A stretch of DNA of 53,561 nt from a virus: IMG/VR virus record IMGVR_UViG_3300008120_000183, positions 1 to 53,561 of that record. One strand, given 5' to 3'. The notes beneath the pieces were generated by a model, which saw only the letters and a program-made list of their open reading frames with translations, searched no databases and was not told the DNA's origin. Shown one piece after another: positions 4,317-53,541 of the stretch; positions within the stretch are counted from its first letter, which is position 1; the number at the start of each line of letters is the position of its first letter. The translations under genes were made by a program, and so were the position numbers.

Positions 4317-4327
4317 ATATTTATAAG
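4316..4327 (+). promoter_or_regulatory. candidate phage promoter, ATATTTAT class
   Basis: ATATTTAT at 4317-4324 lies in the gap between the sugar cassette and the next gene group. The same 8-mer occupies most of the larger gene junctions in the structural half of the window. It resembles the Bacteroidota -7 box TAnnTTTG. Here the start codon is 41 nt beyond the motif. Confidence 0.4.
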
Positions 4328-4364
4328 TGATAGCCGAACTACTAACCTCTAGCCTTTTTAAATT

Positions 4365-5088: not shown

Positions 5089-5090
5089 TC

Positions 5091-7822: not shown

Positions 7823-7842
7823 TAAAACTTAAACAGATTTTT

Positions 7843-7858
7843 GCCCATATTTATGGGC
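7843..7858 (+). promoter_or_regulatory. palindrome enclosing an ATATTTAT promoter-like motif
   Basis: GCCCATA and TATGGGC form a 7-bp inverted repeat with 2 bp between them at 7843-7858. ATATTTAT (7847-7854) is embedded in it and begins 12 nt before the ATG at 7859. With a loop of only 2 nt it is a poor RNA hairpin and looks more like a protein-binding operator overlapping a promoter. Confidence 0.4.
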
Positions 7859-8586: not shown

Positions 8587-9720
8587 ATGAAAAAAGTATT
8601 ACTGTTCTTATTATTAGGTTTATTTCCAATTTTTTTATCAGCTCAAGAAGAATGTGGTACCACTACTTCAAGAGCTGAGTATAACAAAGCTAGTAGGCAA
8701 GTCAGAAGCCTTACTATGGCTAAAACATCTACCCCAATCCAACTAAAAGAAATACCTATAGTTTTTCATATATTTTATTCGGATTCAATACCTAACTCAT
8801 ATGTTCCTCAAGAAAAAGTAGTTGAAGCTTTCTATGATATAAATAGAAATTTTATAGGAACTAAATTTAGATTTCGTTTAGTTGATATTAAATATAAAAA
8901 TTTAGCTGAATTTTCTTGGCATAACGATTTTTTAAATGGTAGTACTAATTTACCTAATAAAAATCATGGAAGAATGCATGATCTAGCTAATAGTACTTAC
9001 CTAGATCCTAACTATAATTTAAATGTTTATATTTGTCCTAAGTTTAGTGACCCCAATCTTAGAGGACTTTCTTTCACCACTCCCTATGCTCCTGTCATAG
9101 GGCAAGGGCTAAAACCAGCAGATGGTGTTTGGATTAGAACAGATGTTTTTGGACTTAATCTTCCTTACTTGGCTAGACACGGTACCTCAAATAAAGTTGT
9201 AGTTCACGAAATAGGACATTACTTAGGACTATTCCATACTTTTCAAGGTAGTACTGGGTGTGAGCCTGATGCCTTACCTTTAGATTGTGCTACTACAGGG
9301 GATTTAGTATGTGACACCCCTCCTATAAGATCTTCAGTTATGGCTAATCATTGTAATCCTAGATGCCCTAATGATTGGACACCTGGTAAACCTTGGGAGA
9401 ATTACACATACGATAACTTTATGGATTATTTAGCGGATAATTGTAGGCATAGTTTCACCCCAGGTCAAATTGAAAGAATGCACCAACATATCACCCAACA
9501 GAGATCTAATGTTTATCAAATTATATCTCCCCAACAGCAAGTTGACTTAGATAAAAATTATAGCATAGGCTCTTCAGATATGCTGTTACTTTTATCTTGT
9601 ATAAATCAACCTATTGAATCTAAAGATTGCTATTTATGTGATTTTGATTTCAATAAAGTAGTAGGTGTATCCGATCTTCAAACATTACTTTCTTATATGG
9701 GAACTTCTTATTCAAAGTAA
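8587..9720 (+). CDS. secreted M43 (pappalysin/cytophagalysin-type) metalloprotease with dockerin-like tail
   Basis: 377 residues. A Sec signal peptide (MKKVLLFLLLGLFPIFLSAQ) is followed by a short pro-region. The zinc site HEIGHYLGLFH at 207-217 fits HExxHxxGxxH (ligands H207, H211, H217; E208 catalytic), and the Met-turn is at M279 (FMDYL). The sequence between them contains the disulfide-prone stretch and CDTPP segment typical of family M43. Two dockerin-like repeats close the protein (DLDKNYSIGSSDMLLLLS and DFDFNKVVGVSDLQTLLS). It probably cleaves surface or extracellular proteins of the infected host or its neighbours. No T9SS-type end is visible, unlike the next gene. Confidence 0.9.
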   Translation: MKKVLLFLLLGLFPIFLSAQEECGTTTSRAEYNKASRQVRSLTMAKTSTPIQLKEIPIVFHIFYSDSIPNSYVPQEKVVEAFYDINRNFIGTKFRFRLVDIKYKNLAEFSWHNDFLNGSTNLPNKNHGRMHDLANSTYLDPNYNLNVYICPKFSDPNLRGLSFTTPYAPVIGQGLKPADGVWIRTDVFGLNLPYLARHGTSNKVVVHEIGHYLGLFHTFQGSTGCEPDALPLDCATTGDLVCDTPPIRSSVMANHCNPRCPNDWTPGKPWENYTYDNFMDYLADNCRHSFTPGQIERMHQHITQQRSNVYQIISPQQQVDLDKNYSIGSSDMLLLLSCINQPIESKDCYLCDFDFNKVVGVSDLQTLLSYMGTSYSK

Positions 9721-9755: not shown

Positions 9756-11105
9756 ATGAAAAAATTAGCTTTATTATTAGGTTTTTTCTCCCTAATATCT
9801 TTATCAGTTGCTCAAGAACCTATGAGCTGTGCTATGCTGGGTGATACAAAAAATGTATTGCCTATGGGGTTTCTAAAAAATAAAAGTAATCGCAGTAATA
9901 CTCCTAAAGTAATACCTGTAGTAGTTCACATAGTTTATACTGATGCTATAGAAAATACTTATGTTCCTGTTGAGGCGATCCAACCCGCTATAGACCAACT
10001 AAATGTTGATTTTGAAGGAACAAATATATCATTTGAATTAGTAGGATATGACTATACTGATTTATCTGTTTACAGTTGGCATGATGCTTATGTAAATGGA
10101 AGTATTTGTTTTCCAAGTTATCAAACTCAAGCTACTATGCTAGCTAATGATTTAGCTTGGGACATAGGTGAATATTGTAATGTTTATGTTATACCTAAAA
10201 TGTGTTCTACAATATTAGGGTATGCTTATGTTGGTTATGGTCCTGATAATGCAGATGATGGGGTTTGGGTACTAACAAGAACATTTGGTGTAGGAGAGTG
10301 GCCTCATTTAAGCCCTAGCCATAATGAAAATGAAGTACTTACTCATGAAGCAGGTCATTATTGTGGTTTATTCCACACATTTAATAATAACCCAGGCTCA
10401 TGTGGAGGACAAAACCCAGACATCCCTTGTGAGTATGAAGGAGATTATGTTTGCGATACTCCTCCTACTAAACCTAGTGCTGGTTGTCCTGGCACTACAG
10501 GATATTATTGTCCTATATCCAATTATGATGGAGGGGTACCTTTTAATGCTCGCAATCATATGGACTATGGGGGTCAATTTTGTAGAGATGAGTTTACTCC
10601 CGGCCAAATAGATAGAATGCATGCTATGCTTGAATATCAAAGATACGAACTATATAATGATGAAACTACTATTCCATTTTGCCCTGGTGATTTTAATGGG
10701 GATGGGAATATAGGTACAAATGATTTGTTAGTAATATTATCTAACTATGGTTGTATAGGATGTGGTCCTTCACAAGGTGATGTTTCTTTAGATTATGTAG
10801 TAGGTGTAACTGATTTAAATTGGATATTAGCTAATTGGGGAGAAATTTGTGGAGATGGTATAGGAATGTTAGAAGGAGATAATGTTACTCTACCACAGTC
10901 ACCTTCAAAACCAAAACAAACAATACCTTATAAAGTATTAGCTGCTTTATTAGCTCAAGAACCAAGACCTATTTTAGAAATAAGTTATTATGATATTATA
11001 GGTAGAAAGATAAACTTAAGTGAATTAGTAGAAAAACACGGAATTTATTTAGTAGAAATAATTCTTGAAGATGGTAACAGAATAGTTATAAAAACTATTT
11101 TATAA
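9756..11105 (+). CDS. secreted M43 metalloprotease with dockerin-like repeats and a T9SS-type C-terminal sorting domain
   Basis: 449 residues. Signal peptide MKKLALLLGFFSLISLSVAQ; zinc motif HEAGHYCGLFH at 197-207; Met-turn at M269 (HMDYG). Dockerin-like repeats follow from about residue 312 (GDFNGDGNIGTNDLLVIL and a second, degenerate DVSLDYVVGVTDLNWILA). The last 50 residues (ISYYDIIGRKINLSEL, then HGIYLVEIILEDGNRIVIKTIL split over two strands) match the type A sorting domain of Bacteroidota type IX secretion substrates. The enzyme should therefore cross the outer membrane through the host T9SS and be released or anchored at the surface. It is a paralogue of the upstream protease and is followed by a strong terminator. 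Confidence 0.9.
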   Translation: MKKLALLLGFFSLISLSVAQEPMSCAMLGDTKNVLPMGFLKNKSNRSNTPKVIPVVVHIVYTDAIENTYVPVEAIQPAIDQLNVDFEGTNISFELVGYDYTDLSVYSWHDAYVNGSICFPSYQTQATMLANDLAWDIGEYCNVYVIPKMCSTILGYAYVGYGPDNADDGVWVLTRTFGVGEWPHLSPSHNENEVLTHEAGHYCGLFHTFNNNPGSCGGQNPDIPCEYEGDYVCDTPPTKPSAGCPGTTGYYCPISNYDGGVPFNARNHMDYGGQFCRDEFTPGQIDRMHAMLEYQRYELYNDETTIPFCPGDFNGDGNIGTNDLLVILSNYGCIGCGPSQGDVSLDYVVGVTDLNWILANWGEICGDGIGMLEGDNVTLPQSPSKPKQTIPYKVLAALLAQEPRPILEISYYDIIGRKINLSELVEKHGIYLVEIILEDGNRIVIKTIL

Positions 11106-17258: not shown

Positions 17259-17675
17259 ATGGAAGAACTAAAAAGATTCAGACAATTTCTCGCAGAGAAA
17301 AAAATAACAGAAGCTAATGACTCACAACTTCAGGCTTTAATGAATATAGTATCAGGGGATTGGGCTTCAGATGTTCTCCAAGATGGAACCTTTGGCACCG
17401 TAAGCCCCTTTGGTAATGGAGAACAAGGAACTCCACTTATGAATGTAACTAAGGAAATCAAAAGCAATTTCGAGTTCTATAAAGAAGACCCAGATACCGA
17501 TGACTTTGACTTGGTTAAAGATGATATGAAAGCAGTAAAAGAAATAGCTCGAGCTGTTAAAAAAATGGGAGGTAGAGTAGCATATGGTGGTGATGGGCTC
17601 CAATATGTTTACACCGTAAATGGTGAAGGTGAGTTACTTGCACAAGCAATAGAAACCGATGAAGAGCCAGAATAA
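17259..17675 (+). CDS. putative packaged (internal head) protein with capsid-targeting-like leader
   Basis: 138 residues. The N terminus MEELKRFRQFLAEKKITEAN resembles the T4 capsid-targeting sequence (MKTYQEFIAEA type), with cleavage-like sites LAE|K and ITE|A (after residues 13 and 18). The rest is acidic and soluble (DLVKDDMKAVKEIARAVKKM). A near-identical leader (MKELNTFRQFLAE) starts the gene at 51704. It and the next gene lie far from the main packaged-protein cluster. Role inside the virion is inferred from the leader only. Confidence 0.65.
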   Translation: MEELKRFRQFLAEKKITEANDSQLQALMNIVSGDWASDVLQDGTFGTVSPFGNGEQGTPLMNVTKEIKSNFEFYKEDPDTDDFDLVKDDMKAVKEIARAVKKMGGRVAYGGDGLQYVYTVNGEGELLAQAIETDEEPE

Positions 17676-17686
17676 TTTAATACAAA

Positions 17687-17983
17687 ATGAAAGAACTAAA
17701 CTCATTCAGAGAATATCTCAGTAAAAACGAAAATTATGCCATAAAAAATTATGTCATAAATTTAGGTGGAGATTTTGCGCTTAACCCAGCCGAAGTCGAA
17801 GAATTTCTTAAAAACGAGGGATATGACGATGAAATGATAGATGATATGTTTGATGACCATAACTTTCAAGAAGATTTAGCAGGTATTGTTAATGCATTTG
17901 TTGAAGGTGGAGAATTAGACCAAAACGAAATAGAAGATTTACTCGCCCAAGCAGCCAACTTCTATGAAGGTAACTACGACTAA
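17687..17983 (+). CDS. putative packaged protein, leader-related to its neighbour
   Basis: 98 residues starting MKELNSFREYLSKNENYAIK, the same leader type as the upstream gene but without a clean LxE site. The remainder is acidic and helical (PAEVEEFLKNEGYDDEMIDD). 11 nt separate the two genes. Function unknown. Confidence 0.6.
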   Translation: MKELNSFREYLSKNENYAIKNYVINLGGDFALNPAEVEEFLKNEGYDDEMIDDMFDDHNFQEDLAGIVNAFVEGGELDQNEIEDLLAQAANFYEGNYD

Positions 17984-21389: not shown

Positions 21390-21474
21390 GGTGAGATGGC
21401 AGAGTGGTCTATCGCGTCGGTCTTGAAAACCGAAGTACTGCAAGGTACCGGGGGTTCGAATCCCTCTCTCACCG
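21390..21474 (+). tRNA. tRNA-Ser (anticodon UGA)
   Basis: Acceptor GGTGAGA pairs with TCTCACC (21467-21473); discriminator G. The anticodon stem TCGGT/ACCGA encloses CTTGAAA with anticodon TGA, reading UCA. A long variable arm (class II) and a GGTTCGAATCC T-arm are present. No encoded CCA. Confidence 0.92.
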
Positions 21475-21518
21475 CGAGTTTTTATAAATTTTAACAAGTA
21501 AATAATTAATTAAACACA

Positions 21519-21686
21519 ATGAAAAACTTTTTTGTACTTGCAGCCGTTGTTGGCTTGGTAGCGTGTAACAACACAGAAACTGAAACCGAAAACCAGGTTC
21601 AGGGTCAAGACACTATTGTAGTAGCTGTTGATTCTACTGCAGTTGTTGTTGATACTACTGTTGTTGAGACTGAGGTAGCCCAGTAA
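21519..21686 (+). CDS. small lipoprotein between tRNA genes
   Basis: 55 residues. MKNFFVLAAVVGLVAC is a lipoprotein signal, followed by an acidic/Val-Thr-rich tail (NNTETETENQVQGQDTIVVA). It is placed between two tRNA-Ser genes. A weak hairpin AGCCC/GGGCT followed by A residues lies just after it (about 21694-21708). Unknown function; similar in design to the other small lipoproteins here. Confidence 0.65.
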   Translation: MKNFFVLAAVVGLVACNNTETETENQVQGQDTIVVAVDSTAVVVDTTVVETEVAQ

Positions 21687-21712
21687 CAACCCCAGCCCTT
21701 AGGGGCTAAAAC

Positions 21713-21797
21713 GGAAGATTGCCAGAGTGGTTAATGGAGCGGTTTGCTAAACCGTCATCAAGAAATTGATGCGTTGGTTCGAATCCAACATCTTCCG
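21713..21797 (+). tRNA. tRNA-Ser (anticodon GCU)
   Basis: Acceptor GGAAGAT pairs with ATCTTCC (21790-21796); discriminator G. The anticodon stem GCGGT/ACCGT encloses TTGCTAA with anticodon GCT, reading AGC/AGU. A long variable arm (TCATCAAGAAATTGATG) is intact. Confidence 0.92.
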
Positions 21798-21821
21798 CCC
21801 GAACGAAGCAAATACCAGGAT

Positions 21822-21895
21822 GCGGGTGTGGCGGAATTGGCATACGCACTTGACTTAGGATCAAGTTATTGGGGGTTCGAGTCCCTCCACCCGTA
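21822..21895 (+). tRNA. tRNA-Leu (anticodon UAG) with short variable arm
   Basis: Acceptor GCGGGTG pairs with CACCCGT (21888-21894, first pair G-U); discriminator A. Anticodon stem CTTGA/TCAAG with loop CTTAGGA, anticodon TAG. The D-arm (GTGGCGGAATTGG) is typical of tRNA-Leu. The variable region is only TTATT (21866-21870) instead of the usual long arm, which makes this 74-nt molecule unusual. Confidence 0.85.
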
Positions 21896-21903
21896 CAAAC
21901 TTC

Positions 21904-27675: not shown

Positions 27676-28005
27676 ATGATGAAACAAAATGCGTTAAAAT
27701 TGTTAATTAAACAGGCAGTTAAGGAAGCAATTCAAGAAGAATTAAAAGATATTTTACTTGAAGCGGTGCGTTCTCCTAAACAAACAATTGTAGAACATGT
27801 TCAACCTTCTTCTCAGGCAGTAGGTTCTCCTATGAATACTCAAGATAGAAGAGCAGTCTTCCAAAACATTCTAGGAGATATGCAGAACCAATTCACCACC
27901 CAGCATCTTCCTCAAACTTTTAACCCACAAGGGGCATTACCTGGTGGAGATTTACCCCCCGGAGAAGTTGACATATCCCAAATTATGGGTTTAATGAGTA
28001 AATAA
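27676..28005 (+). CDS. structural protein with leader-like N-terminal helix
   Basis: 109 residues. The first 30 are an amphipathic helix (ALKLLIKQAVKEAIQEELKD), similar to the head-targeting leaders of this phage but longer. The rest is Pro/Gln-rich and probably flexible (PQTFNPQGALPGGDLPPG). It shares a base with the gp25-like gene. Role unknown; perhaps a scaffold or tail-tube accessory. Confidence 0.55.
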   Translation: MMKQNALKLLIKQAVKEAIQEELKDILLEAVRSPKQTIVEHVQPSSQAVGSPMNTQDRRAVFQNILGDMQNQFTTQHLPQTFNPQGALPGGDLPPGEVDISQIMGLMSK

Positions 28006-42385: not shown

Positions 42386-43186
42386 GTGAAACTATATGAT
42401 ATACTAAAAGAATTAGCAACCAAACCTAAGGCTTTAATATTAGCTGGGGCTCCGGGTGCAGGTAAATCGTCTATAATAGGTGATATTTTAAATAATTTTA
42501 ATCTTAAAGTATTAAATATAGATGATTTTTACGTTCCTGATTTAATTAAAAGAGGAGTATCTCTTGATATGAAAAATTCTACTCCTGAGGAACGAAGTGA
42601 GCAAGCCAAAGCAATGCAGTATGCTCAAAAACAATATGATGCTAGTCTTAATAGTGCTATTGAAAATAAAGAAAATATAGTAATTGATGGAACCGGAGCT
42701 TCATCAAGAGCCACATTTAATTTAAATGATAAACTTAAAGAAGCAGGATATGATACTATGATGTTATATGTTTATACTTCTTTAGAACAATCACTTGAAC
42801 GTAATGAAAAAAGGTTCGAAAAAAGCCAAGGCAAAGACAGAAGTCTTCCACCAGCAATTGTTTTTAGGACTTGGAATTCTGTCACTGATAATTTTAGTAC
42901 ATATTTTGATAAGTTTGGTAATAATTTTGTAGCGGTTGTAAACGATCCTACTCCCTTTACTAAAAAAAATGTCGAGGATGTTATAACAAAATATTTGACT
43001 CCTTATACTCCTAAAGATACTAAACCCAAAACTCCTGAAGAGCAGGCTAAATCTGATTTAAATAAGGAAAAATTAAATCAACAGGTAGCTAACTTTATGA
43101 AACAAGATCAAGTGCAAAAAGTAATAGATAATTCTGTTACTAAAGGTGAAGCTCAATCGAAAATTAAAGCATTTTTATCTCTATGA
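42386..43186 (+). CDS. zeta-toxin/polynucleotide-kinase-like P-loop protein, possibly packaged
   Basis: 266 residues from a GTG. Walker A GAPGAGKS at 21-28; IDDFYVPDLIKRG after it; later VIDGTGASSRATFN. This order matches zeta-toxin and related P-loop kinases that phosphorylate small molecules. The N terminus MKLYDILKELATKP resembles the head-targeting leaders of the surrounding genes. The C-terminal 60 residues are charged and likely flexible. It might be injected into the cell at infection; host-inhibitory or nucleotide-metabolic role not resolved. The end overlaps the next gene by 4 nt. Confidence 0.75.
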   Translation: MKLYDILKELATKPKALILAGAPGAGKSSIIGDILNNFNLKVLNIDDFYVPDLIKRGVSLDMKNSTPEERSEQAKAMQYAQKQYDASLNSAIENKENIVIDGTGASSRATFNLNDKLKEAGYDTMMLYVYTSLEQSLERNEKRFEKSQGKDRSLPPAIVFRTWNSVTDNFSTYFDKFGNNFVAVVNDPTPFTKKNVEDVITKYLTPYTPKDTKPKTPEEQAKSDLNKEKLNQQVANFMKQDQVQKVIDNSVTKGEAQSKIKAFLSL

Positions 43187-45633
43187 ATAGTCTATCTATT
43201 GAATTACTAAAAGGAATTTTAGAAGAAGCAGAATTACCACGCAAAGAAGTAGTAGGAATGTTTGGGGGAGGATTTAAACCCCCTACAATAGGCCACTTAG
43301 AAGTAGTAAAACTAGCCCTAGACCAAAACCCAGAAATGGATAGAATGGTTGTTTTAGTAGGTAGTGGAGAAAGAGATTCTATTACTCAAAAAGAAGCATT
43401 AACTATTTGGAGAATATATCAAAAATATCTTCCTAAAAAAGTAGAAATTCAACCTTCCCCTGAAGGTAAGCCTCCTATTGGGGCTATTTATACTTACGCT
43501 AAAGATAATCCTGAAAAAGATGTATATTGGTTTTTAGGGGCAAGAGAGGGAAATGAAGAAGATGCTCAAGATATATTAAAACGTACTAAGGCTCTTCGTA
43601 AAGGAGAATACCCCAATGTTACAGTCAAAACTATATCAACCCCTGATTCGGTTAGCGGAACCAAAACCAGAAAAGCTCTTTTAGCTCGAGATAAAGAAAC
43701 ATTTATACAAGCGTTGCCTGATATTCCTGAAGTAGATGAAATTTGGGATATGCTTTCAAGCTCTATGGGTATTAATGAAGAAAAAAATCCTGTACAACAA
43801 GGAGATCAAATTTTAGCTAAAAAAGGAGCCTGTGTTTATAGAAATGGTAAAAAAATTAATTTAAAACGTAGAAGGTTATTTAATGTTTTAGGTAAAGTTG
43901 AAAATCGTCTTACATTAGAAGATAATTACCAAAGACAATATTGGGTGTTTGATTATAATACTAATGATACTAAATGGGATCGATACTCTTCTCCTGAGTT
44001 AGAAGAAGAAATTTCTCCTGAGCAAGTTGACCAAGTAGATGCTTTTGCAGACAGACAATTAAAACCTATTGATGTTGATTTAAAAAAACAACACTTCTTT
44101 GACCGCTTAAACGACCCTAGAAATGAAAAAGAAATAACCTATTCTGAATTGGTTTCTTTTTTCAAAAAATTAGGTAAAAACAAAAAAGAATTTACTGAAT
44201 TTTTACGCAAGTATGCTGAAGTAGTAGCTAAAGATGATAAAACGAATATTAATATTCCTTTTGTTCAAGCAGCTAATAAAGCAATTGCTAAAACTATAAT
44301 GCGTAAAAAAAATTTCCAAACTCCTAATAAAGTTATTCCTCTTCAAGAGTATAGATACGATCAAGAAGTTTTAATTCAATCCCGTTATATAATAAATCAA
44401 CTTAAAGCTAATTTTAAAAAGAAGTATACTGAAGAGATTGAAGGGAATCTTGATAATATTAATTATGATTTAACATTTGAATTTATCCCTTCAAATACTT
44501 CAAAATTAGGCTCTCTTCCCTATGTAATAAATGCTGCAGCCGATGAGGACACAGTAGAAATCATTCTTACTTATAACCCTAAATCCTTCCCAGAAAAATA
44601 TAACGACTTAATAGCAGAATTAAAGGATACTTTACGCCATGAATTGGAACATGTTGCCCAGCAAAATTTAGACAAGGGAGTAAACATAGAAAAAGATCAA
44701 GATAAACTACCTTTTTATAAGTACCTTACATTAGGATCTGAAATACCTGCTTTTATATCGGGAATATATAAGAGAGCAAAAACTAAAAAAATTCCGTTAC
44801 AACAAGCTATTGATGATTTCTTTGATGATTATTCTGCTGAATTAAGTGATGAAGAAGAACAATTTGTTAGAAAAGAATGGGATAGATGGATTAGAATAAA
44901 TTTACCTAAAGTAAAACTAAAGGAAGCTGACCCTAAAACAGGCACAGGTAAAAAACCTAAAGGATCAGGCCGCAGACTTTATACAGACGAAAATCCTAAA
45001 GATACAGTAGGAATTAAATTTAAAACTAAAGAAGATATAGTAACTACTTTAAATAAAGATTCTTTTAAATCTAAACCTCACGCACGTCAATCTCAAGTAA
45101 TTAATTTAATCCACCAAAGGGTTAGGGCAGCCTATCAAAATGCTAAAGATCCTGAGACCAAAGCTAGGTTAAAGCGAGGTTTAGAGTATATTGAAAAACG
45201 TAAAGAAGCCTCTAAAAAAAAGACCCAAAGATTAAAACAATTAAAAGAAGCCATCGAACCCGAATCTCTTCAATCTAATCTATTATCATTAACTCAATAT
45301 ATGGGAAGTAATGGTTTAAATTTGAAACCATACCCTAAAGTTAAATTTATTAATAGTGATGTTGAGAATGCTAAAGATTTATTAGGCAAAACGGCTTATT
45401 ATGATCCTAATGCTCGATTAATCGTTTTATATACTTTAAATAGACATCCTAAAGATATTCTTCGTTCATATGCTCATGAACTAGTTCACCATCATCAAAA
45501 TCTTAATAGAACTCTTCAACCCTTCCAAACTCAAAATACTAATGAAGATGGAGATTTAGAACAAATTGAGCGTGAAGCTTATGAAAATGGTAACATTTTA
45601 TTTAGAAATTGGGAAGACACTAAAAAATACTAA
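43183..45633 (+). CDS. NMNAT-like nucleotidyltransferase/double-zincin polyprotein, possibly packaged
   Basis: 816 residues. Leader MNSLSIELLKGILEEAELP with LEE|A after residue 15. Domain 1: nucleotidyltransferase with GGGFKPPTIGH (28-38) and SGTKTRKAL (159-167), as in NMN adenylyltransferases. Middle domain: HELEH at 486-490, a zincin-type metalloprotease motif. C-terminal domain: HELVHHH at 765-771, a second zincin-like site. LKE|A occurs at 579-582 and again at 687-690, around a basic linker (GTGKKPKGSGRRLY). These could be cut by a gp21-like prohead protease during maturation, releasing several enzymes inside the head. NAD synthesis and proteolysis in the host on ejection are plausible. 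Confidence 0.75.
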   Translation: MNSLSIELLKGILEEAELPRKEVVGMFGGGFKPPTIGHLEVVKLALDQNPEMDRMVVLVGSGERDSITQKEALTIWRIYQKYLPKKVEIQPSPEGKPPIGAIYTYAKDNPEKDVYWFLGAREGNEEDAQDILKRTKALRKGEYPNVTVKTISTPDSVSGTKTRKALLARDKETFIQALPDIPEVDEIWDMLSSSMGINEEKNPVQQGDQILAKKGACVYRNGKKINLKRRRLFNVLGKVENRLTLEDNYQRQYWVFDYNTNDTKWDRYSSPELEEEISPEQVDQVDAFADRQLKPIDVDLKKQHFFDRLNDPRNEKEITYSELVSFFKKLGKNKKEFTEFLRKYAEVVAKDDKTNINIPFVQAANKAIAKTIMRKKNFQTPNKVIPLQEYRYDQEVLIQSRYIINQLKANFKKKYTEEIEGNLDNINYDLTFEFIPSNTSKLGSLPYVINAAADEDTVEIILTYNPKSFPEKYNDLIAELKDTLRHELEHVAQQNLDKGVNIEKDQDKLPFYKYLTLGSEIPAFISGIYKRAKTKKIPLQQAIDDFFDDYSAELSDEEEQFVRKEWDRWIRINLPKVKLKEADPKTGTGKKPKGSGRRLYTDENPKDTVGIKFKTKEDIVTTLNKDSFKSKPHARQSQVINLIHQRVRAAYQNAKDPETKARLKRGLEYIEKRKEASKKKTQRLKQLKEAIEPESLQSNLLSLTQYMGSNGLNLKPYPKVKFINSDVENAKDLLGKTAYYDPNARLIVLYTLNRHPKDILRSYAHELVHHHQNLNRTLQPFQTQNTNEDGDLEQIEREAYENGNILFRNWEDTKKY

Positions 45634-45638
45634 TAAAC

Positions 45639-45800
45639 ATGACAACTAAAGAATTTATAGACACAGTAAACGATGAGTTTGATATTGAAACTCTTGAATT
45701 AATGCAATCTATCATAGATAAAAGATTAACTCTGCTTAAAACTATGAAAGATGTTGTTACTAAAAAAAGAGTACAAGGGTTTAAAACATATGACCAATGA
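45639..45800 (+). CDS. small helical protein with leader-like start
   Basis: 53 residues (MTTKEFIDTVNDEFDIETLE ... KRVQGFKTYDQ). The MTTKEFIDTV start resembles the other leader-type N termini. Overlaps the next gene by 4 nt. Function unknown. Confidence 0.6.
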   Translation: MTTKEFIDTVNDEFDIETLELMQSIIDKRLTLLKTMKDVVTKKRVQGFKTYDQ

Positions 45801-46375
45801 ATAAAGATAATGTTTTAAAAAAAGAATTCTCTAAAAAAGATGTACAAAGAGCACGTAACCTTATTACAGGTAATAAGGGAGCTCGTACTACTGAGGGAAT
45901 TGGTTACACTAAAACTTATGACTATCATAAAGAGGGAGACGTGTGGGAAGAAGATGGTAGAACTTGGACTATTAAAAATGGTCTTAAACAAAACATAACA
46001 AAATTAGATTCATTCAAAAAAGTAGGTAAATTACCCCTATTTTGTCCTTCTTGTAATAAGTTGATGAAAAAAAATCTTGATAAAAAGGTATTTCCTGCTT
46101 ATCAAAAATGTTTTGATTGTGTGGTAGATTATGAAGCCAAACTTCAAGCCGAAGGCCAATCTCAAGAATATTATTCTGATATGCACAACCAACATATAGA
46201 TAAGGTTCAAAAAGAATATGAGGCTTTTATGAAAGAAAAAATAAAAGAATCAAGTAATTCATATATTACTGAACGTGGAGATAAAGAAAATTGGAATGGG
46301 GGGTTTGATAAAAATTATATTGAAAATGAACTTCAAAAAGGGCTTGAATTTCTTGAAAATTTAAAGATTAAATAA
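45797..46375 (+). CDS. zinc-ribbon protein of T4-like phages
   Basis: 192 residues. CPSC at about residues 80-83 and CFDC (about 100-105) make a zinc ribbon. N-terminal part has an ordered region (TGNKGARTTEGIGYTKTYDY). Charged helix at the C terminus with IKE|S and ITE|R cleavage-like sites. Similar proteins occur in marine T4-like phages with unknown role; probably virion-associated by neighbourhood. Confidence 0.6.
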   Translation: MNKDNVLKKEFSKKDVQRARNLITGNKGARTTEGIGYTKTYDYHKEGDVWEEDGRTWTIKNGLKQNITKLDSFKKVGKLPLFCPSCNKLMKKNLDKKVFPAYQKCFDCVVDYEAKLQAEGQSQEYYSDMHNQHIDKVQKEYEAFMKEKIKESSNSYITERGDKENWNGGFDKNYIENELQKGLEFLENLKIK

Positions 46376-46376
46376 A

Positions 46377-46389
46377 GTCATATATTTAT
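46377..46389 (+). promoter_or_regulatory. candidate late promoter, ATATTTAT class
   Basis: GTCAT directly followed by ATATTTAT (46382-46389), 15 nt upstream of the ATG at 46397. The GTCAT here is adjacent, not 36 bp away, so it is probably unrelated to the tandem-GTCAT promoters. Confidence 0.4.
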
Positions 46390-46396
46390 TAGTAAC

Positions 46397-47050
46397 ATGG
46401 CTCAACCCGATAAAATAGATATCCTTACTTTTGATGTTCCTCTTTTTATTCGTCTTTTAGAATATGCTAAAGAGGATGCAAAAACTGATATGGATTTACA
46501 TAATTTAGCAGATAATGCTATTTCTCTTAGTAAAGAAAAAGAAATTTTAACTATGGATGATTATAATTCATTAGTTGATTCTTCGTCTGTTAAAGAAGCC
46601 ATAAAAAATGTTTTAGAAGCACAAAAAAAACGTGACCGCTGCCTTAGAATAGCAGACCGTAAATTTGATAAACCTTCAGCCTATAAATCAGGTGCTGTAG
46701 TTAGATGTCGTAAAGGTGATATTTGGAAAGGCATCAAAGAGGGGAAAGATAGCCCACAACCCGGTAAGGCCACCCCTTACGGGTCAGGATTTACTAAAGT
46801 TAAAGAAGAATTAATTCTTGAAAAAGCAAAAGAAACACTCCGCACCTGGTTCAAACGCAAAGGAGCACCGGGCAAAACCGGAGGTTGGGTTGATTGCAAT
46901 TCACCTATTAAAAAAGATGGAGAAATAACTGGATACAAATCTTGTGGGAGACAAAAAGGCGAAAAACGCTCTAAATACCCTTCATGTCGCCCAACTGCTT
47001 CCCAATGTAATAATCCAGGCAAGGGTAAAACTTGGGGTAAAACAAAATAA
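46397..47050 (+). CDS. phage structural protein with DUF5872-like C terminus
   Basis: 217 residues. The central segment DRCLRIADRKFDKPSAYKSG with VVRCRKG, and the C-terminal WFKRKGAPGKTGGWVDCNSP, GEITGYKSCGRQKGEKRSKY resemble a small basic cysteine-rich domain (DUF5872 type) common in large phages. IKE|G lies between the domains, again a possible prohead cleavage site. Likely a DNA-binding virion protein. No enzyme motif. Confidence 0.65.
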   Translation: MAQPDKIDILTFDVPLFIRLLEYAKEDAKTDMDLHNLADNAISLSKEKEILTMDDYNSLVDSSSVKEAIKNVLEAQKKRDRCLRIADRKFDKPSAYKSGAVVRCRKGDIWKGIKEGKDSPQPGKATPYGSGFTKVKEELILEKAKETLRTWFKRKGAPGKTGGWVDCNSPIKKDGEITGYKSCGRQKGEKRSKYPSCRPTASQCNNPGKGKTWGKTK

Positions 47051-47063
47051 AATTCAAAATAAA

Positions 47064-47495
47064 ATGAAAAGATCTGAGTTTAAAGAATATTTAAAAACTG
47101 AAATTCGTAAAATGAACGAAGCAACTATCGAGACAGATAATACTAAAACGGCAGCTGAAATTGCTAAGGAAATTCCTGATGCTACTATTAAAGTTACAGG
47201 AGAAGGTAAAATTAAAGTATCTGAATTTAAAAAATATCTTCGCAATGAAATTTTAGCCGAAATTAATGAAGCTGAAGAGGATAATGTTGATGTTAATATT
47301 GACAACATTGAATCTACCCCAATTGAACCAGCCGCAACAGACGAAACCAGCGAATTAGATGGTATCAGTGACTCTTTAGTTGATTTAGCCAGACAAGCTA
47401 AAGGAATGGGTCAATTGGAATTAGCCAACCAAATTCTTAACTCTGCTAAATACGCTGCTAAAACTCAATTTAAGGGAGTAGAAAAAGGAGCCTAA
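47064..47495 (+). CDS. putative packaged protein with duplicated leader motif
   Basis: 143 residues from ATG 47064, the first ATG after the previous stop. The leader MKRSEFKEYLKTEIRKMNEA is repeated in the same protein as VSEFKKYLRNEILAEINEA (about residues 53-71). INE|A follows the second copy. The rest is acidic and helical (LDGISDSLVDLARQAKGMGQ). A duplicated targeting signal is unusual. Overlaps the next start by one base. Confidence 0.65.
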   Translation: MKRSEFKEYLKTEIRKMNEATIETDNTKTAAEIAKEIPDATIKVTGEGKIKVSEFKKYLRNEILAEINEAEEDNVDVNIDNIESTPIEPAATDETSELDGISDSLVDLARQAKGMGQLELANQILNSAKYAAKTQFKGVEKGA

Positions 47496-48340
47496 TGGAA
47501 GAGAGAAAAAAAACTAAATTAGAAAAGATGTCTAAAAAAGAAAAAACATCTTTAGCTTATGCATTAGCTACTAATTTAGCTAAGTATGGTAAACCCCAAA
47601 CACCTAAAAATGAACGTCAATTAACTAAGGGTGAAATGAAAAAAAGAGAAAAACATATGGGTAAGTTTAAAAAAGCTTTTAGCTTAGAAGAAATTGAGCA
47701 AATAAAAGAGGAATTAAAAAATCCTAAAAGAGCTGACTTAAATAAAGATGGTGAATTATCTTCATATGAAAAAAAAAGAGGAGGAGCCATTGAAAAAGCC
47801 ATGCAAAAAGAAGATCTTTCACAATATAAAGTAGGAGATAAAGTAGAATTTAAAGGAAAGAATTATGAGATTACTCGTATAATTGATGATAGAATTTATA
47901 TTAAAAACTTAAAATATGGTGGAAGACCTGATAGTTGGGTTAAAGCAATTGATTTAAAAAAATCAGTAAAAGAAGACCTAGATTTAGGCCACGAAGACAA
48001 CGAACCCCAAATGCTTAAAGCTGATCTTTATAGAATAGCTAAATATGCTGTTGAATTATATAAAATGGTAGACCAATTTGATATTGAGGGCCAGGAAGTA
48101 GATTTTCCACAATGGTGGCAGGAAAAAATTATTCTTTCAAAAGAAGCAATGGTCAAAGCTAAACACTATCTTGATAGTGAATTACAAGTAGATAAGATTG
48201 ATTCAATGTTAGAGGATGATAAAAGTGGTGAAGAACATAAAGTTCTTTCTACCGCAGAACTAAATAAATTAGCAGCACTTCCTCCTACTGATCCTTCATT
48301 TAAAAAAGATCGTAGACACCAAAGATTAGTGAAAAAATAA
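47495..48340 (+). CDS. virion structural protein with EF-hand-like motif
   Basis: 281 residues. The N-terminal half is lysine-rich. RADLNKDGELSSYEKKRGGA carries an EF-hand-like calcium loop (DLNKDGELSSYE). The second half contains LGHEDNEPQMLKADLYRIAK and VDFPQWWQEKIILSKEAMVK, a motif shared by structural proteins of marine T4-like phages. Probably packed in the head or part of the tail-neck complex. The previous stop and next start overlap by one base. Confidence 0.7.
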   Translation: MEERKKTKLEKMSKKEKTSLAYALATNLAKYGKPQTPKNERQLTKGEMKKREKHMGKFKKAFSLEEIEQIKEELKNPKRADLNKDGELSSYEKKRGGAIEKAMQKEDLSQYKVGDKVEFKGKNYEITRIIDDRIYIKNLKYGGRPDSWVKAIDLKKSVKEDLDLGHEDNEPQMLKADLYRIAKYAVELYKMVDQFDIEGQEVDFPQWWQEKIILSKEAMVKAKHYLDSELQVDKIDSMLEDDKSGEEHKVLSTAELNKLAALPPTDPSFKKDRRHQRLVKK

Positions 48341-48834
48341 TGCAAAAATCAGAATTCATAGCAAAAATCAAAACTTTAGCAAAACAGGTATATGCTAACA
48401 AGACTAATCAACCTGAAATTGCTCAAAGTAAATTTCCTGTAATTGATAAGTTTCCTCCTTTAAAAGGAGTAATGGAAGATTTATTTGATTTTCAATATGA
48501 ACCCTTTGTTGAAGATATGGAATGGGTAGCACCCCGTCCTACTACATTTCGAGTTAAACTTGTAAATGGGGCTGATTTTTATCTTATATATCAAGGCATG
48601 GATGAGGGTAAAGGAATATTTATAGCTCAAGTAGCTGGTAAAAAATATTTTTTAGAATCTCTTCCCGAAGAACAACAAGCATCTGAAGCAATAGCTCGTT
48701 TGTTAAGATATAACTATGCAACCCCACCCAAAACAGAAACCCCAGATATTGAACCAGATTTAGGAGGAGAAGAAACACCCCCTCCTACTCCTGAAGAAGA
48801 AAGTGGAGTTCCTGCTTCTGTAGAAGAATTATAA
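48340..48834 (+). CDS. putative packaged/structural protein
   Basis: 164 residues. Starts MQKSEFIAKIKTLAKQVY, leader-like but without a clear LxE site. The middle (GVMEDLFDFQYEPFVEDMEW) is beta/aromatic-rich and the C terminus is Pro/Glu-rich and flexible (TPPPTPEEESGVPASVEE). Function unknown. Confidence 0.6.
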   Translation: MQKSEFIAKIKTLAKQVYANKTNQPEIAQSKFPVIDKFPPLKGVMEDLFDFQYEPFVEDMEWVAPRPTTFRVKLVNGADFYLIYQGMDEGKGIFIAQVAGKKYFLESLPEEQQASEAIARLLRYNYATPPKTETPDIEPDLGGEETPPPTPEEESGVPASVEEL

Positions 48835-48835
48835 A

Positions 48836-49276
48836 ATGGATAACTTTGATTTAAAAAAATATTTACGAGAAGGAAAGTTATATGAGGCAGTTATGGCTTG
48901 TCCTATAGCTACTCAAGATTTAGAAGTAAATACTCGTAACAGAGATGCTGCTATTAAAGCAGATTATATAAAATATGGTCCCTTAAATATAGATGAACCT
49001 GGTGATTACTGGGAAGAATTAGCTAACTATTGGGATACAACCTTAGAAGCAGCCCAAAATTCGGTTTGTGGAAATTGTGTAGCTTTTGATATATCTCCTA
49101 GAATGGATAAATGTATGCCTGGGCCCGTTTCTGATGATAGCGGAAGATTAGGGTACTGTTGGATGCACAATTTTAAATGCCATTCTGCACGAAGCTGTAG
49201 AATATGGGCTAAAGGGGGCCCAATTACAAAAGATAGTATATCTTATGATTGGCAAAAACGTCAAGAAAGTAAATAA
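48836..49276 (+). CDS. cysteine-rich structural protein of T4-like phages
   Basis: 146 residues. Leader MDNFDLKKYLREGKLYEAVM has LRE|G and LYE|A sites. The mature part has a cysteine cluster: CGNC, KCM, GYCWMHNFKCHSARSCR. Similar cysteine-rich modules are found in marine T4-like virion proteins. Could bind a metal or iron-sulfur cluster; not resolved. Confidence 0.65.
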   Translation: MDNFDLKKYLREGKLYEAVMACPIATQDLEVNTRNRDAAIKADYIKYGPLNIDEPGDYWEELANYWDTTLEAAQNSVCGNCVAFDISPRMDKCMPGPVSDDSGRLGYCWMHNFKCHSARSCRIWAKGGPITKDSISYDWQKRQESK

Positions 49277-50529
49277 TGGATATAATAGAAAAGTTTTTAA
49301 GACAGATTTCATATAAGTTTCCTAAAGGATATCCTGACATTACTAATGAACAGGATATGCTTATGTTAGAAGGAATACTAAAAAAGGTGGGAATTGAGTT
49401 ACAAGAAGCGCCTCAAATATCTTATGACCAATTAAAACCTGAAGCCCAAAAAGTTGCAGATGATGTTCTTCAATTATTAGGACTTAACAAGGACCAAATC
49501 AAAGGAACATCAGGCACTCAATTTATTATATACACAGATATTCCTAGAGAAATTTTAGTTCAAAAGGTAGAAGATTCTGGAAAGTTTGGTAGCAGAAGAG
49601 GAGATAGGGCGGATGCTAGAGGTAATTTTAAAGTAGGAAATGTAACTTTTTTATTTAAACCTTTAAAAACTAGCGGAGAATATTATAATTTAAAGCCTCA
49701 AAATATGGGAATTACTTTAGATAAGTATGTTCCTATTTCTCAAATTCAACAAGAACTTATAAAGGGAATACAAGCTAATAAACGTATAGATGATCTTCAA
49801 AAGAAATTTTTAACAGCTTTAGTAACTAAAGAAGATAATCTTTCACCTGAAGAAAAACAAACTATTTTTAAGGACGATAGATTTTATGGAGAATTTCTTA
49901 AAAATTTTGGTGAAATAATAGGTGCTATTGAATTTGGATTATCTAAAAATGCTAATGCTATATTTTTTCCGGGTAAAGGAAATTATCCTTTAATAGATTA
50001 TCTACTCAAGACGGATAGTGGCACAATTCAAGTAAGTGCTAAAACCCCTAAAGGACAAGGCAATACAGTAAAACTCCCAGACTTAATCCGTCTTATACAA
50101 GATACAGGAAATAAACCTGATCCTGACTTGTTAAAAATAAATGATATTATTAATAATAATACACTAAAAGTAGGTACTACTGAACTTATTAGGGCATATG
50201 GGGATTCAAATCTTAAATCAAAATTAGAAGATTTTATTACTAAATACCCGGATTACGCCGAAAGAAGATTAACTTCGGAGGAAACCGTAGAAAGATTAGA
50301 ATTAGAAAGAGAAATAGTAAAACAACTAAATTCTCAGTTTAGCCCTATGTTTACTAAAGCTTTTAATGATTATGTAGATGTTGTATATATAAAATATTTC
50401 CCTAACAAATCTACTTTAGAGCCTGAGTTTAAAGTTATTGATGAAGAAAATTTTAAAGTAAAACTTAGAACCAAAAATAGCCCGGGCCATGATAGTGATA
50501 AAATTGGGTTTGATGTATCTAAGGCTTAA
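49276..50529 (+). CDS. putative packaged protein with PD-(D/E)XK-like segment
   Basis: 417 residues. N-terminal LQE|A site (IELQEAPQI). The middle contains NFGEIIGAIEFGLS, then YPLIDYLLKTDSGTIQVSAK. The order Glu, Asp, then xSAK suggests a PD-(D/E)XK nuclease fold, but the D and (D/E)xK spacing needs checking. Charged C terminus. A nuclease delivered with the genome could cut host DNA; this is inference. Confidence 0.55.
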   Translation: MDIIEKFLRQISYKFPKGYPDITNEQDMLMLEGILKKVGIELQEAPQISYDQLKPEAQKVADDVLQLLGLNKDQIKGTSGTQFIIYTDIPREILVQKVEDSGKFGSRRGDRADARGNFKVGNVTFLFKPLKTSGEYYNLKPQNMGITLDKYVPISQIQQELIKGIQANKRIDDLQKKFLTALVTKEDNLSPEEKQTIFKDDRFYGEFLKNFGEIIGAIEFGLSKNANAIFFPGKGNYPLIDYLLKTDSGTIQVSAKTPKGQGNTVKLPDLIRLIQDTGNKPDPDLLKINDIINNNTLKVGTTELIRAYGDSNLKSKLEDFITKYPDYAERRLTSEETVERLELEREIVKQLNSQFSPMFTKAFNDYVDVVYIKYFPNKSTLEPEFKVIDEENFKVKLRTKNSPGHDSDKIGFDVSKA

Positions 50530-50531
50530 TA

Positions 50532-50539
50532 ATATTTAT
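50532..50539 (+). promoter_or_regulatory. candidate leaderless late promoter, ATATTTAT class
   Basis: ATATTTAT begins 12 nt upstream of the ATG at 50544, the shared spacing of this class. Confidence 0.5.
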
Positions 50540-50543
50540 TAAT

Positions 50544-51218
50544 ATGAAATTAAAACAATTTATCCAAGAAGCAATTCAAAGATACCAATTGTCTAAAAAA
50601 CCATGTTCTTGTGGGTGTGGTACTTGTGATGATACGGTAAATAAACTCGCACTACGCGAAAATAAAGTGCCTATAAGCGAAGACCTTCGTTACCACATCG
50701 AAAATGGCATTTCATTACAAGAAAATGTGTTTAGAATTGGATCTAAAAAATATTTACAACTTTTTGCTGAAGCTCGCTTACTTAATGAATGGGGGGTTCT
50801 TACCTTAGATGAAAATAGTCAATTTTTGATTGAAACAACAGACATAGGTAAATTTGGGATTTATGAAGGTAAAAAAGTACCACTTGATTTACCTATGGTT
50901 GATGAAGAAATTGATGAAGCTAAGAAAAAAACCCAGAAAAAAGACCCACCAGTGGGCAAACCAATGAGAGCATCTTCTGGAGGTAAAAAATTTAAAGTTT
51001 ATGTTAGAGATCCTAAAACAGGAAATATTAAAACAGTACGATTTGGGGCAAGTGGTTTAAGTGCCAAAATTAGAAACCCTAAAGCTAGAAATGCGTTTGC
51101 CAAAAGACACAGATGTGCTCAAGCCAAAGACAGAACAAAGGCTTCATATTGGAGCTGTAACCTTCCCAGATACGCCCCCGCTTTAGGTCTAGGCCCAAAA
51201 ATGAATACTTATTGGTAA
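50544..51218 (+). CDS. packaged structural protein with basic cysteine-containing C-terminal domain
   Basis: 224 residues. The leader MKLKQFIQEAIQRY has IQE|A after residue 9, the closest match in the window to T4 MKTYQEFIAEA. A second IDE|A lies before the basic region (EEIDEAKKK). The C-terminal domain GKKFKVYVRDPKTGNIKTVR ... RHRCAQAKDRTKASYWSCNL resembles a basic virion domain seen in many large phages. An N-terminal CSCGCGTC cluster may bind metal. Likely binds DNA inside the head. Confidence 0.7.
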   Translation: MKLKQFIQEAIQRYQLSKKPCSCGCGTCDDTVNKLALRENKVPISEDLRYHIENGISLQENVFRIGSKKYLQLFAEARLLNEWGVLTLDENSQFLIETTDIGKFGIYEGKKVPLDLPMVDEEIDEAKKKTQKKDPPVGKPMRASSGGKKFKVYVRDPKTGNIKTVRFGASGLSAKIRNPKARNAFAKRHRCAQAKDRTKASYWSCNLPRYAPALGLGPKMNTYW

Positions 51219-51264
51219 TGATTAAATTCATAGACATATAATAAGAAACCAAAAGTAATCTAAA

Positions 51265-51531
51265 ATGAGACCCTACCAGGAACAACTTATTGAAACTAAT
51301 GTAGTTATACGAGAATTTTTATCAGATACTGACCCCATGTCACTAGTATGGCATGAAGATCAAGAAGACAGAATAATAGAGGTTTTAGTTGGAAACGGAT
51401 GGAGATTTCAATACGATGAAGATCTTCCTTTTGAAATGATAACTGGAGACAGGTTTGAAATTCCTAGAGGATATCTACACAGAGTTATAAAAGGAAATGG
51501 AACTTTAAAAATTAAAATTATAAAAAAATGA
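51265..51531 (+). CDS. cupin-like protein
   Basis: 88 residues. The segment FEIPRGYLHRVIKGNGTLKI is typical of a small cupin barrel (PxGxxHxxxN-type end with H); the first half (MRPYQEQLIETNVVIREFLS) resembles related proteins in T4-like marine phages. Possible sugar or metal binding. The last 4 nt overlap the next gene. Confidence 0.65.
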   Translation: MRPYQEQLIETNVVIREFLSDTDPMSLVWHEDQEDRIIEVLVGNGWRFQYDEDLPFEMITGDRFEIPRGYLHRVIKGNGTLKIKIIKK

Positions 51532-51701
51532 ATACACAAGAAATCTTTGAGCAAATTGATTATTTGTATGAAACATTTAAGATGGAACATGAAGGTAAAT
51601 CAAAAGCAGCTCATGGTCGTGCTAGAAAAGCATTAGGTGAATTAAAAAAATTAGTAACTGAGTACCGTAAAGCTTCTATTACTGAAGATAAAACTAAATA
51701 A
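51528..51701 (+). CDS. histone H1-like basic protein
   Basis: 57 residues. The segment GKSKAAHGRARKALGELKKL with TEYRKAS resembles the Bacteroidota histone H1-like (Hc1-type) DNA-binding protein, in which KxAxxxRARKAxxELKxL is typical. It may organise DNA in the head or bind host DNA after injection. Overlaps both neighbours closely. Confidence 0.6.
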   Translation: MNTQEIFEQIDYLYETFKMEHEGKSKAAHGRARKALGELKKLVTEYRKASITEDKTK

Positions 51702-51703
51702 AA

Positions 51704-51997
51704 ATGAAAGAATTAAACACATTTAGACAATTTCTCGCAGAAGGATCAGAATTAGGCCAAAAATTAGCTGCTGTTATTAGAGATGATGTGGGTCAAGGAG
51801 AAGGCGAAGAATACGATATGCTTCTTGCTGACTTTGCCACAGAAATAGAAAATGCTTCTGACAACACAGAAGCTTATAAATTACTAGTAAATTTGGCTGG
51901 TAAGATTGGAGAAATGACAGGGGAATGGAGCGCAGATACAAACTATTTAGATGCTGCATATATAGATCTTGAAGATTATGGGGTAAGCCCCGATTAA
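51704..51997 (+). CDS. putative packaged protein, leader almost identical to gene at 17259
   Basis: 97 residues. MKELNTFRQFLAEGSELGQK: LAE|G after residue 13. The mature part is acidic (DVGQGEGEEYDMLLADFATE). Its leader matches MEELKRFRQFLAE of the gene at 17259, so leaders are conserved while the bodies differ. Terminator downstream closes the packaged cluster. Confidence 0.65.
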   Translation: MKELNTFRQFLAEGSELGQKLAAVIRDDVGQGEGEEYDMLLADFATEIENASDNTEAYKLLVNLAGKIGEMTGEWSADTNYLDAAYIDLEDYGVSPD

Positions 51998-52173: not shown

Positions 52174-53541
52174 ATGAATAAAAAAATTGTAATTGTAGGA
52201 GCTGGAGTAGCAGGTGTAAATGCCGCTACTAAATTAGTAGATAACGGTTATCCTGGTAATCTAATTACTATTATTGATATGGGTAAAGACCCACACAACC
52301 GCAAACCAGAAGAGGTAATGACTGGGTTTTTAGGTGCCGGTGGTTGGAGTGACGGTAAACTTACTTACCATACCGCTATTGGAGGGCAACTTTCTAAATA
52401 TTGTGGTGAAGAAAAAGCAATGGAATTGATGGATCAAGTTATTACTAACTTTAAACGCTTCCACCCTAAACCTGAAGAAGTACAATGTTCAAATCCTGAA
52501 GCAGAACCAGATTTCATTAAACCCTATTTTGGTCTACGTTTATTTCCTGTATGGCATGTTGGTACAGATTATCTTCATGAAATTGGCAAAAATTGGTATG
52601 ACTATTTAGTGTCTAAGGGTGTTATTTTTGGATGGGAAACTAAAATAGAAGACATTGACTTTAATAATAATATAGCCTACACCCATAATACCCATATAGA
52701 ATACGATGAGCTTATATTTGCTGTAGGTAAATCAGGTATTGACTTCGCTCAAGAATTAGCCAACCAATATAACCTTCCAGATGAACCAAAATCTGTTCAA
52801 ATTGGAGTAAGATTTGAAGCACCACAACACCACTTTCAAAAACTAATTGATATATCATATGATTTTAAACTATATAGAAAATTTGAAGATAAAGGTGTAT
52901 CACTTCGCTCATTTTGTACTAACAATAATGCGGCTTATGTGGCCCTAGAAGAAACATATGGTGATTATAGTTACAATGGCCACGCCAAAAAAGGTGAAGA
53001 TTACCGTAACAACATGACTAATTTTGGCATTTTGATGGAAATTCAAGGTATTGACGACCCATTTGAATGGTCTCGTAATTTAGTTTCTAAAGTAAATAAA
53101 ATTGATATTGTAGTGGGAGAAGGGGCAAAAGGAGGACAACGTGCTCAAGGTAGGTACCAAGCTAAATACAAAGCAGGTTATTATTATACTCCTAATCCTT
53201 CTAAATATAAATCCTTAACCTCTGAAGGAGATTGGGTACGAGGACATTATGCAACCCAAAACGACTATAATAAAATCAAAGAAGCATTCCAGGGTTATTT
53301 CCAATATATTGAAGATTTTATTGAAGACCTAAAAAAAATATTCCCTACCCTACAAGATGACTGGGGAATCTACATCCCAGAAGTAAAATATCTTTCTCCC
53401 GAACCTCTTGTAAATTATGAGGATTTATCACTTACTACATATCCTAATGTTCATTTTGTTGGGGATGCCTTAAGTGCACGAGGTATTACGGTGAGTGGTG
53501 CTCAAGGAACATATGTTGCTGAAAATATTTTGAAACAATGA
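52174..53541 (+). CDS. FAD-dependent dehydrogenase-like protein (COG2509-type)
   Basis: 455 residues. GAGVAGVNAA near the N terminus is the FAD-binding GxGxxG (9-14). The central RSFCTNNNAAYVALEE corresponds to the SFCxCPGGxV region of COG2509-type dehydrogenases but has lost the CPGG. The C-terminal PNVHFVGDALSARGITVSGA matches the FAD-binding end (GDA). The reaction is not known for the family. Unusual in a phage; may be an auxiliary metabolic gene, but it lies right behind the packaged cluster. It overlaps the start of the next gene by 4 nt. Confidence 0.75.
   Translation: MNKKIVIVGAGVAGVNAATKLVDNGYPGNLITIIDMGKDPHNRKPEEVMTGFLGAGGWSDGKLTYHTAIGGQLSKYCGEEKAMELMDQVITNFKRFHPKPEEVQCSNPEAEPDFIKPYFGLRLFPVWHVGTDYLHEIGKNWYDYLVSKGVIFGWETKIEDIDFNNNIAYTHNTHIEYDELIFAVGKSGIDFAQELANQYNLPDEPKSVQIGVRFEAPQHHFQKLIDISYDFKLYRKFEDKGVSLRSFCTNNNAAYVALEETYGDYSYNGHAKKGEDYRNNMTNFGILMEIQGIDDPFEWSRNLVSKVNKIDIVVGEGAKGGQRAQGRYQAKYKAGYYYTPNPSKYKSLTSEGDWVRGHYATQNDYNKIKEAFQGYFQYIEDFIEDLKKIFPTLQDDWGIYIPEVKYLSPEPLVNYEDLSLTTYPNVHFVGDALSARGITVSGAQGTYVAENILKQ

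Follow-up and report, generated by a model that had tools for sequence, protein, structure and literature searches.

A candidate head-cargo gene block with T4-type capsid-targeting leaders in an uncultivated T4-related phage

The 53,561-base linear IMG/VR virus record IMGVR_UViG_3300008120_000183 (here the window; probably a fragment) belongs to a T4-related myovirus that is known only from metagenomes. Its positions of about 42386-51997, together with the gene at 17259 and probably that at 17687, form a gene block (genes are named by their first position). The products of this block are probably head cargo, brought into the prohead by T4-type leaders and processed by a gp21-type protease, a reading that is well supported by comparison with other phages. 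Their delivery into the host with the DNA would follow from what is known of T4 and is fairly likely. Targeting, cleavage and injection in the window phage are steps that we infer.

In T4, the leader MKTYQEFIAE|A (the bar marks the cut) contains targeting residues at positions 4 and 7 and processing residues at positions 8 and 10, and it is cut after (L/I)xE (PMC9026906). This rule was expressed as the motif hydrophobic-x-x-hydrophobic-[LI]-x-E, with the E within the first 17 residues. Across seven related phages the motif was present in 42 of 151 block genes and in 17 of 353 other genes (p=3e-12), a p-value that, like all those below, is a guide, since homology among many of the counted genes makes the counts depend on one another and the motif was written post hoc. 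Shuffling of the first 20 residues gave a mean of 4.3 matches (maximum 12 in 1000) and internal windows used as a control gave 3.2, compared with the 42 observed. In Flavobacterium phage immuto alone (160 kb; its baseplate wedge protein and that of the window share 47% identity, the latter being closer to proteins of other uncultivated contigs), 6/13 block and 9/204 other genes matched (p=5e-5); three of these nine adjoin the block and one lies in the head operon. T4 itself had the motif in 14/252 called open reading frames, including IPII, IPIII and Alt (from a start one codon upstream), so that chance matches are to be expected in about 5% of ordinary genes. As a separate observation, T4 gp61.1 (L111:18966-19130, minus strand) starts with MKTFKEFIKEDM, a full match to the capsid targeting sequence (CTS) rule, and is possibly an unrecognised T4 cargo protein.

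In the window, an N-terminal hydrophobic-x-x-hydrophobic-[L/I]-x-E was matched by 42386 (by eye), 43183, 48836, 50544, 51704 and 17259; 45797, 47495 and 51265 lack it. All leaders and (L/I)xE sites quoted in the original prediction are present in the sequence; the sites of 45797 and 46397 lie outside leaders. The features of the block are as follows:

42386..43186, plus strand: Zeta-toxin/P-loop kinase-like protein, 266 residues, GTG start (Pfam Zeta_toxin, E=1.5e-16)
42386-42412, plus: its putative leader, MKLYDILKE|L (by eye; at the same position in ATG-start homologues)
43183..45633, plus: 816-residue fusion of NMNAT/cytidylyltransferase-like, HFFDRL, zincin-like 1, GTGKKP and zincin-like 2 domains
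43183..43227, plus: its leader MNSLSIELLKGILEE, putative cut LEE|A after residue 15 (E15)
44923..44925, plus: its internal site LKE|A (E581), where the GTGKKP domain begins
45247..45249, plus: its internal site LKE|A (E689), ahead of zincin-like domain 2
45797..46375, plus: zinc-ribbon-like protein without leader, IKE|S at residue 151 (E151)
46397..47050, plus: DRCLRIADRK (weak DUF5872) module fused to a WFKRKG module, with VLE|A (E74) and LILE sites ahead of the modules, IKE|G at E115 outside any leader
47064..47495, plus: protein with two leader copies
47064-47120, plus: leader copy 1, MKRSEFKEYLKTEIRKMNE|A, with MNE|A (E19)
47214-47270, plus: leader copy 2, KVSEFKKYLRNEILAEINE|A, with INE|A (E69)
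47495..48340, plus: basic protein, no N-terminal leader
48340..48834, plus: protein with leader-like start MQKSEFIAKIKTLAKQVY, no cut site; relatives start similarly
48836..49276, plus: Cys-rich (HiPIP-like) protein
48836-48886, plus: its leader MDNFDLKKYLREGKLYE, putative cuts LRE|G (E12) and LYE|A (E17)
49276..50529, plus: nuclease-like protein (PD-(D/E)XK by eye)
49276-49407, plus: its 44-residue prodomain, ending LQE|A (E44)
50544..51218, plus: zinc-ribbon plus basic C-terminal module (PHROG 7595, E=7.6e-10)
50544-50570, plus: its leader MKLKQFIQE|A (E9)
50916-50918, plus: its internal IDE|A (E125)
51265..51531, plus: cupin-like protein (weak), no leader, block member by synteny alone
51704..51997, plus: small protein
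51704-51742, plus: its leader MKELNTFRQFLAE|G, with LAE|G (E13), near T4 MKTYQEFIAE|A in type
17259..17675, plus: distant protein, leader MEELKRFRQFLAE|K, ITE|A at residue 18
17687..17983, plus: distant protein, leader MKELNSFREYLSK, no LxE site

The GTG start of 42386 is supported, because its ATG-start homologues carry the same leader (MIKLLKILKE|A, MIKLTQLLQE|A and MIKLVELLKE|I). The IKE|S of 45797 was rejected as a real cut site: the protein is leaderless and the site was not seen in immuto gp086. A leader-like helix was also found outside the block, in window 27676-28005 and in immuto gp114 (MKLDLLKKLIKEAVKEAV), just upstream of a gp25-like baseplate gene; it marks a stray cargo gene or else is a false positive.

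Similar leaders precede unrelated bodies, as had been predicted. The proteins 17259 (MEELKRFRQFLAE), 17687 (MKELNSFREYLSK) and 51704 (MKELNTFRQFLAE) have unrelated bodies behind a common leader, M-K/E-E-L-x-x-F-R-Q/E-F/Y-L; the distant pair thus has the leader type ascribed to it, and 17687 lacks the cut site. The HiPIP-like body stands behind MDNFDLKKYLREGKLYE|A in the window and behind similar leaders in two relatives (G003 and L091), but behind MIKLSKILNE|A in a third (G001). In the 49276 family, residues 1-44 had a mean identity of 66% across six relatives and the remainder 20%, and L42 and E44 of the prodomain were invariant. Could such leaders be uncut helices that dock the proteins on the prohead or another phage structure, with LxE a by-product of a helix rich in E, L and K? 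Both 48340 and 17687 have a leader without a usable site, P1' is variable, and helices of a similar general type occur elsewhere in the genome. However, [LI]xE was counted 90 times, compared with 49 in shuffles of the same residues, LxE is conserved while flanks and bodies diverge, and T4 cleaves such leaders (PMC9026906). Uncut docking is therefore considered unlikely.

The tag was also compared with the presence of the protease. In four complete phages in which the gp21-type Peptidase_S77 was not found, homologues of three block bodies are present and all are leaderless: GTGKKP in HTVC033P gp40, the basic module in CRP-901 gp67, and the HiPIP-like body in a Manatee Spring podovirus and in DSL-LC01. 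The positive controls of the S77 search (T4, Mosig, Melnitz and phiM12) were matched. Sinorhizobium phiM12 gp159 has one domain in common with the block proteins and no leader. In two unrelated contigs, in which S77 was likewise not found (L093:7807-10488 and L094:1340-4078), the GTGKKP body (L093) and neighbouring proteins start with M-[RK]-x-[GR]-K-[KL] (MRAGKKRDPK, MRYGKKRKLK, MRARKKAYEE, MKHGKLMPGG), which may serve as a comparable tag for a different group of phages.

The window, immuto, G001 and G003 have the order primase, exonuclease, block in common, followed in the relatives by terminase, portal and protease. The major capsid protein gene follows in immuto, G001 and G003. Peptidase_S77 was detected downstream of the block in these three (E 7e-36 in immuto). 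The contig G017, which contains L091 with the whole block and is the closest relative holding it, follows the same order as far as it extends: terminase, portal and then a protease start where the contig breaks off. The GELxHP and SSRGxGS stretches are invariant between the S77 proteins of the relatives and T4 gp21, and the proteases match PHROG 207, head maturation protease. A search for a gp21-like gene had been proposed with the original prediction, and its lack in the genome had been named, along with uncleaved N termini, as refutation. As far as the relatives show, this lack did not come true: they encode S77 just downstream, at the expected place, past the point where the window stops. 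The major capsid proteins of the relatives have an invariant Glu in line with the cut-site Glu of T4 gp23, and their P3 is V; the cut rule in the lineage of the window phage may therefore be [LIV]xE. In several relatives, as at window 52174-53541, a FAD-dependent oxidoreductase-like gene lies between block and terminase.

Leaders of this type are present on proteins detected in virions. For S-CREM2, a T4-like cyanophage, the virion proteome has been published (PMC10665884), and its non-tail virion enzymes start with MKDFDSFLEE (S-adenosylmethionine (SAM) hydrolase), MKRFDAFLTEE (kinase) and MKNFSSFLTE|A (cytidylyltransferase), while its Cas9-like nuclease has LRFASFMAE|A near the start. The motif was found in 5/26 non-tail proteins detected by mass spectrometry, the SAM hydrolase, kinase and cytidylyltransferase among them, and in 5/165 undetected proteins (p=0.005). 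The NMNAT of S-SCSM1, reported as a virion protein (PMC9602691), starts with MKSFLQFLKE|A, and its homologues with MKSFSQFLTE|T (P-SSM2), MKKFSAFLTE|A (Syn33) and MKLFNQFFKE|A (S-CRM01); these leaders match T4 IPIII position by position. The searched passages of the S-CREM2 paper (PMC10665884) mention no leader, and in the searched literature 'capsid targeting' occurred alongside 'cyanophage' only in a T4 review. Separately, a small S-SCSM1 virion protein, gp279 (L124:6547-6756), has a CTS-like C-terminal stretch, RTFKEFLEYIE, hinting that C-terminal tags exist. The block comes after baseplate and tail-fibre genes, which would suit tail or baseplate components of the virion. This role was rejected as very improbable: the motif was found in 0/24 S-CREM2 tail proteins, and gp21-type cleavage acts within the prohead.

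Several block proteins are chains of modules with putative cut sites at the joins. The 816-residue protein 43183 has only three strict sites (residues 15, 581 and 689), each at a module start, and each of these modules occurs in relatives as a separate gene or in a different order. The first site lies ahead of NMNAT in 7/7 homologues, and in immuto gp088 it is internal. The site in the E581 region (LKE/LEE/LTE) is retained in L088 and L091 and lost in L089, and a stand-alone GTGKKP gene in G001 has the leader MIKLLDLLRE|ND at the matching place. A site near the start of the zincin-like 2 module was present in 8/9 homologues. Stand-alone homologues of the 46397 modules have N-terminal leaders ending LxE. 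For ten module families with 60 instances, [LIVM]xE was found at most 20 residues upstream in 55 (23.3 expected), including 34/39 internal module starts (16.2 expected), and no random set attained either value; this is suggestive and not proof, because instances within a family are related. An AlphaFold2 model of the 816-residue protein was too poor for a fold search (mean pLDDT 47.5); it had a helix at 3-16, a low-confidence linker at 10-20 and low-confidence stretches near residues 15, 583 and 689. We tentatively propose that the lineage packs modular cargo polyproteins, in which one leader may load a chain of effector domains from a single gene that the prohead protease would cut into separate injected proteins at the LxE of each domain join. 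This is possible rather than probable, and cutting at the joins is the newest and an unproven part of the reading.

Alternatively, the proteins could be ordinary intracellular ones, with helices for oligomerisation or for binding RNA polymerase or a membrane, and the LxE at joins would be fusion relics. Some leader-like starts do occur outside the block, e.g. next to baseplate genes in window 27676 and immuto gp114, and fusion of two leader-bearing genes by itself leaves an internal leader relic; yet the sites are retained in diverged homologues. The S-CREM2 and S-SCSM1 virion proteins bearing such leaders, the untagged homologous bodies in phages without S77 and the position of the block ahead of the head operon all argue against this alternative, which is considered decidedly unlikely.

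Several points weigh against head cargo. About 5/12 block proteins have no clear leader. The prediction that the neighbours start similarly is borne out by the enrichment of the T4-rule motif, and does not extend to 47495, 51265 and 45797, which are leaderless; 48340 has a leader-like start with no site. In the window alone the enrichment was modest (4/14 block and 2/71 other genes, p=0.006), an underestimate because the automatic gene caller missed the GTG-start 42386; the strict [LI]xE[AGS] gave 4/14 and 7/71 (p=0.08). The motif was set up with the leaders already known, though its positions come from T4 genetics. A floating leader profile learned by expectation maximisation found generic helices in a held-out test in immuto (2/13 block and 10/204 other genes at score 8); because it did not pick out the block, it was dropped for the T4-anchored motif. 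P1' is frequently other than A, G or S. The 53.5-kb window ends before the head genes and contains no protease or head gene. The virion data all come from other T4-like phages. The window and cyanophage NMNAT, at most possible orthologues, have only the nucleotidyltransferase fold-family motif in common (pairwise E=0.048), and a PDB sequence search with the NMNAT part of 43183 gave nothing useful. The T4-like, head-loaded cargo that was originally predicted is nevertheless supported by the T4 CTS rule and the tagged virion proteins of the two cyanophages. The word 'arsenal' overstated its uniformity, with untagged members and most bodies without known activity.

If the block encodes head cargo, the amphipathic helix with which seven or eight of its proteins start would act like the T4 CTS. 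Its hydrophobic residues would dock the protein on the prohead scaffolding core. The gp21-type protease, whose gene in relatives comes shortly after those of terminase and portal, would cut after [L/I/V]xE. The mature body would be released by the cut and remain with the DNA. On infection the P-loop kinase, NMNAT-like, two zincin-like, nuclease-like, Cys-rich and basic nucleic-acid-binding modules may enter the host by way of the tail. Leaders are swapped between bodies, and strings of modules with LxE at the joins may give several proteins from one chain inside the prohead. The T4 rule thereby becomes a means of telling from sequence which of the many unknown proteins of T4-related phages travel in the head and are likely to be the first to reach the host. 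The tag also offers a reason for NMNAT-like enzymes, SAM hydrolase and kinases in cyanophage virions, which is unstated in the papers found. If cargo chains are cut at their joins, the prohead protease would double as a cargo-maturation enzyme.

Elsewhere in the window, three tRNA genes (Ser-TGA, Ser-GCT and Leu-TAG) are located at 21390-21896. By eye, 63-6427 is a sugar-related run with glycosyltransferase-like, aminotransferase-like and acetyltransferase-like proteins and a GH16-like glycoside hydrolase; 7841-8575 encodes a lipoprotein-like protein with a C-terminal dockerin-like repeat, and 8587-9720 and 9756-11105 encode two secreted metalloproteases that resemble metzincins (HExGHxxGxxH) and carry signal peptides and dockerin-like repeats.

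Among known systems, the phicrAss001 cargo is alike in head storage for ejection and differs in its virion, and the text describing it mentions no protease (PMC10172136). The inner-head and ejection proteins of phiKZ and SPN3US are alike in that many proteins are copackaged with DNA and a gp21-related protease removes propeptides by cutting after xxE, whereas these propeptides mostly exceed 100 residues and follow an S/A/G-x-E or A-x-E rule (PMC5694885). The virion enzymes of S-CREM2 and S-SCSM1 are likewise unrelated enzymes, including NMNAT-like ones, with a T4-type leader, and the S-CREM2 virion contains the prohead core protease; the host phylum is another, the bodies are mostly different from those of the window, and the papers report the enzymes in virions while mentioning no leader in the passages searched. 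T4 IPI, IPII, IPIII and Alt are alike in the short N-terminal leader, its hydrophobic spacing and the (L/I)xE cut rule, and the T4 internal head proteins also in having unrelated bodies behind one leader (as IPII and IPIII) and a gp21-type protease. T4 cargo genes are scattered, whereas about a dozen candidate cargo genes stand in one block in the window phage. In its lineage the leader register is shifted by -1 to +3 and the leaders are highly diverse, and, unlike T4, it has multi-module chains with internal sites and a 44-residue prodomain on one family.

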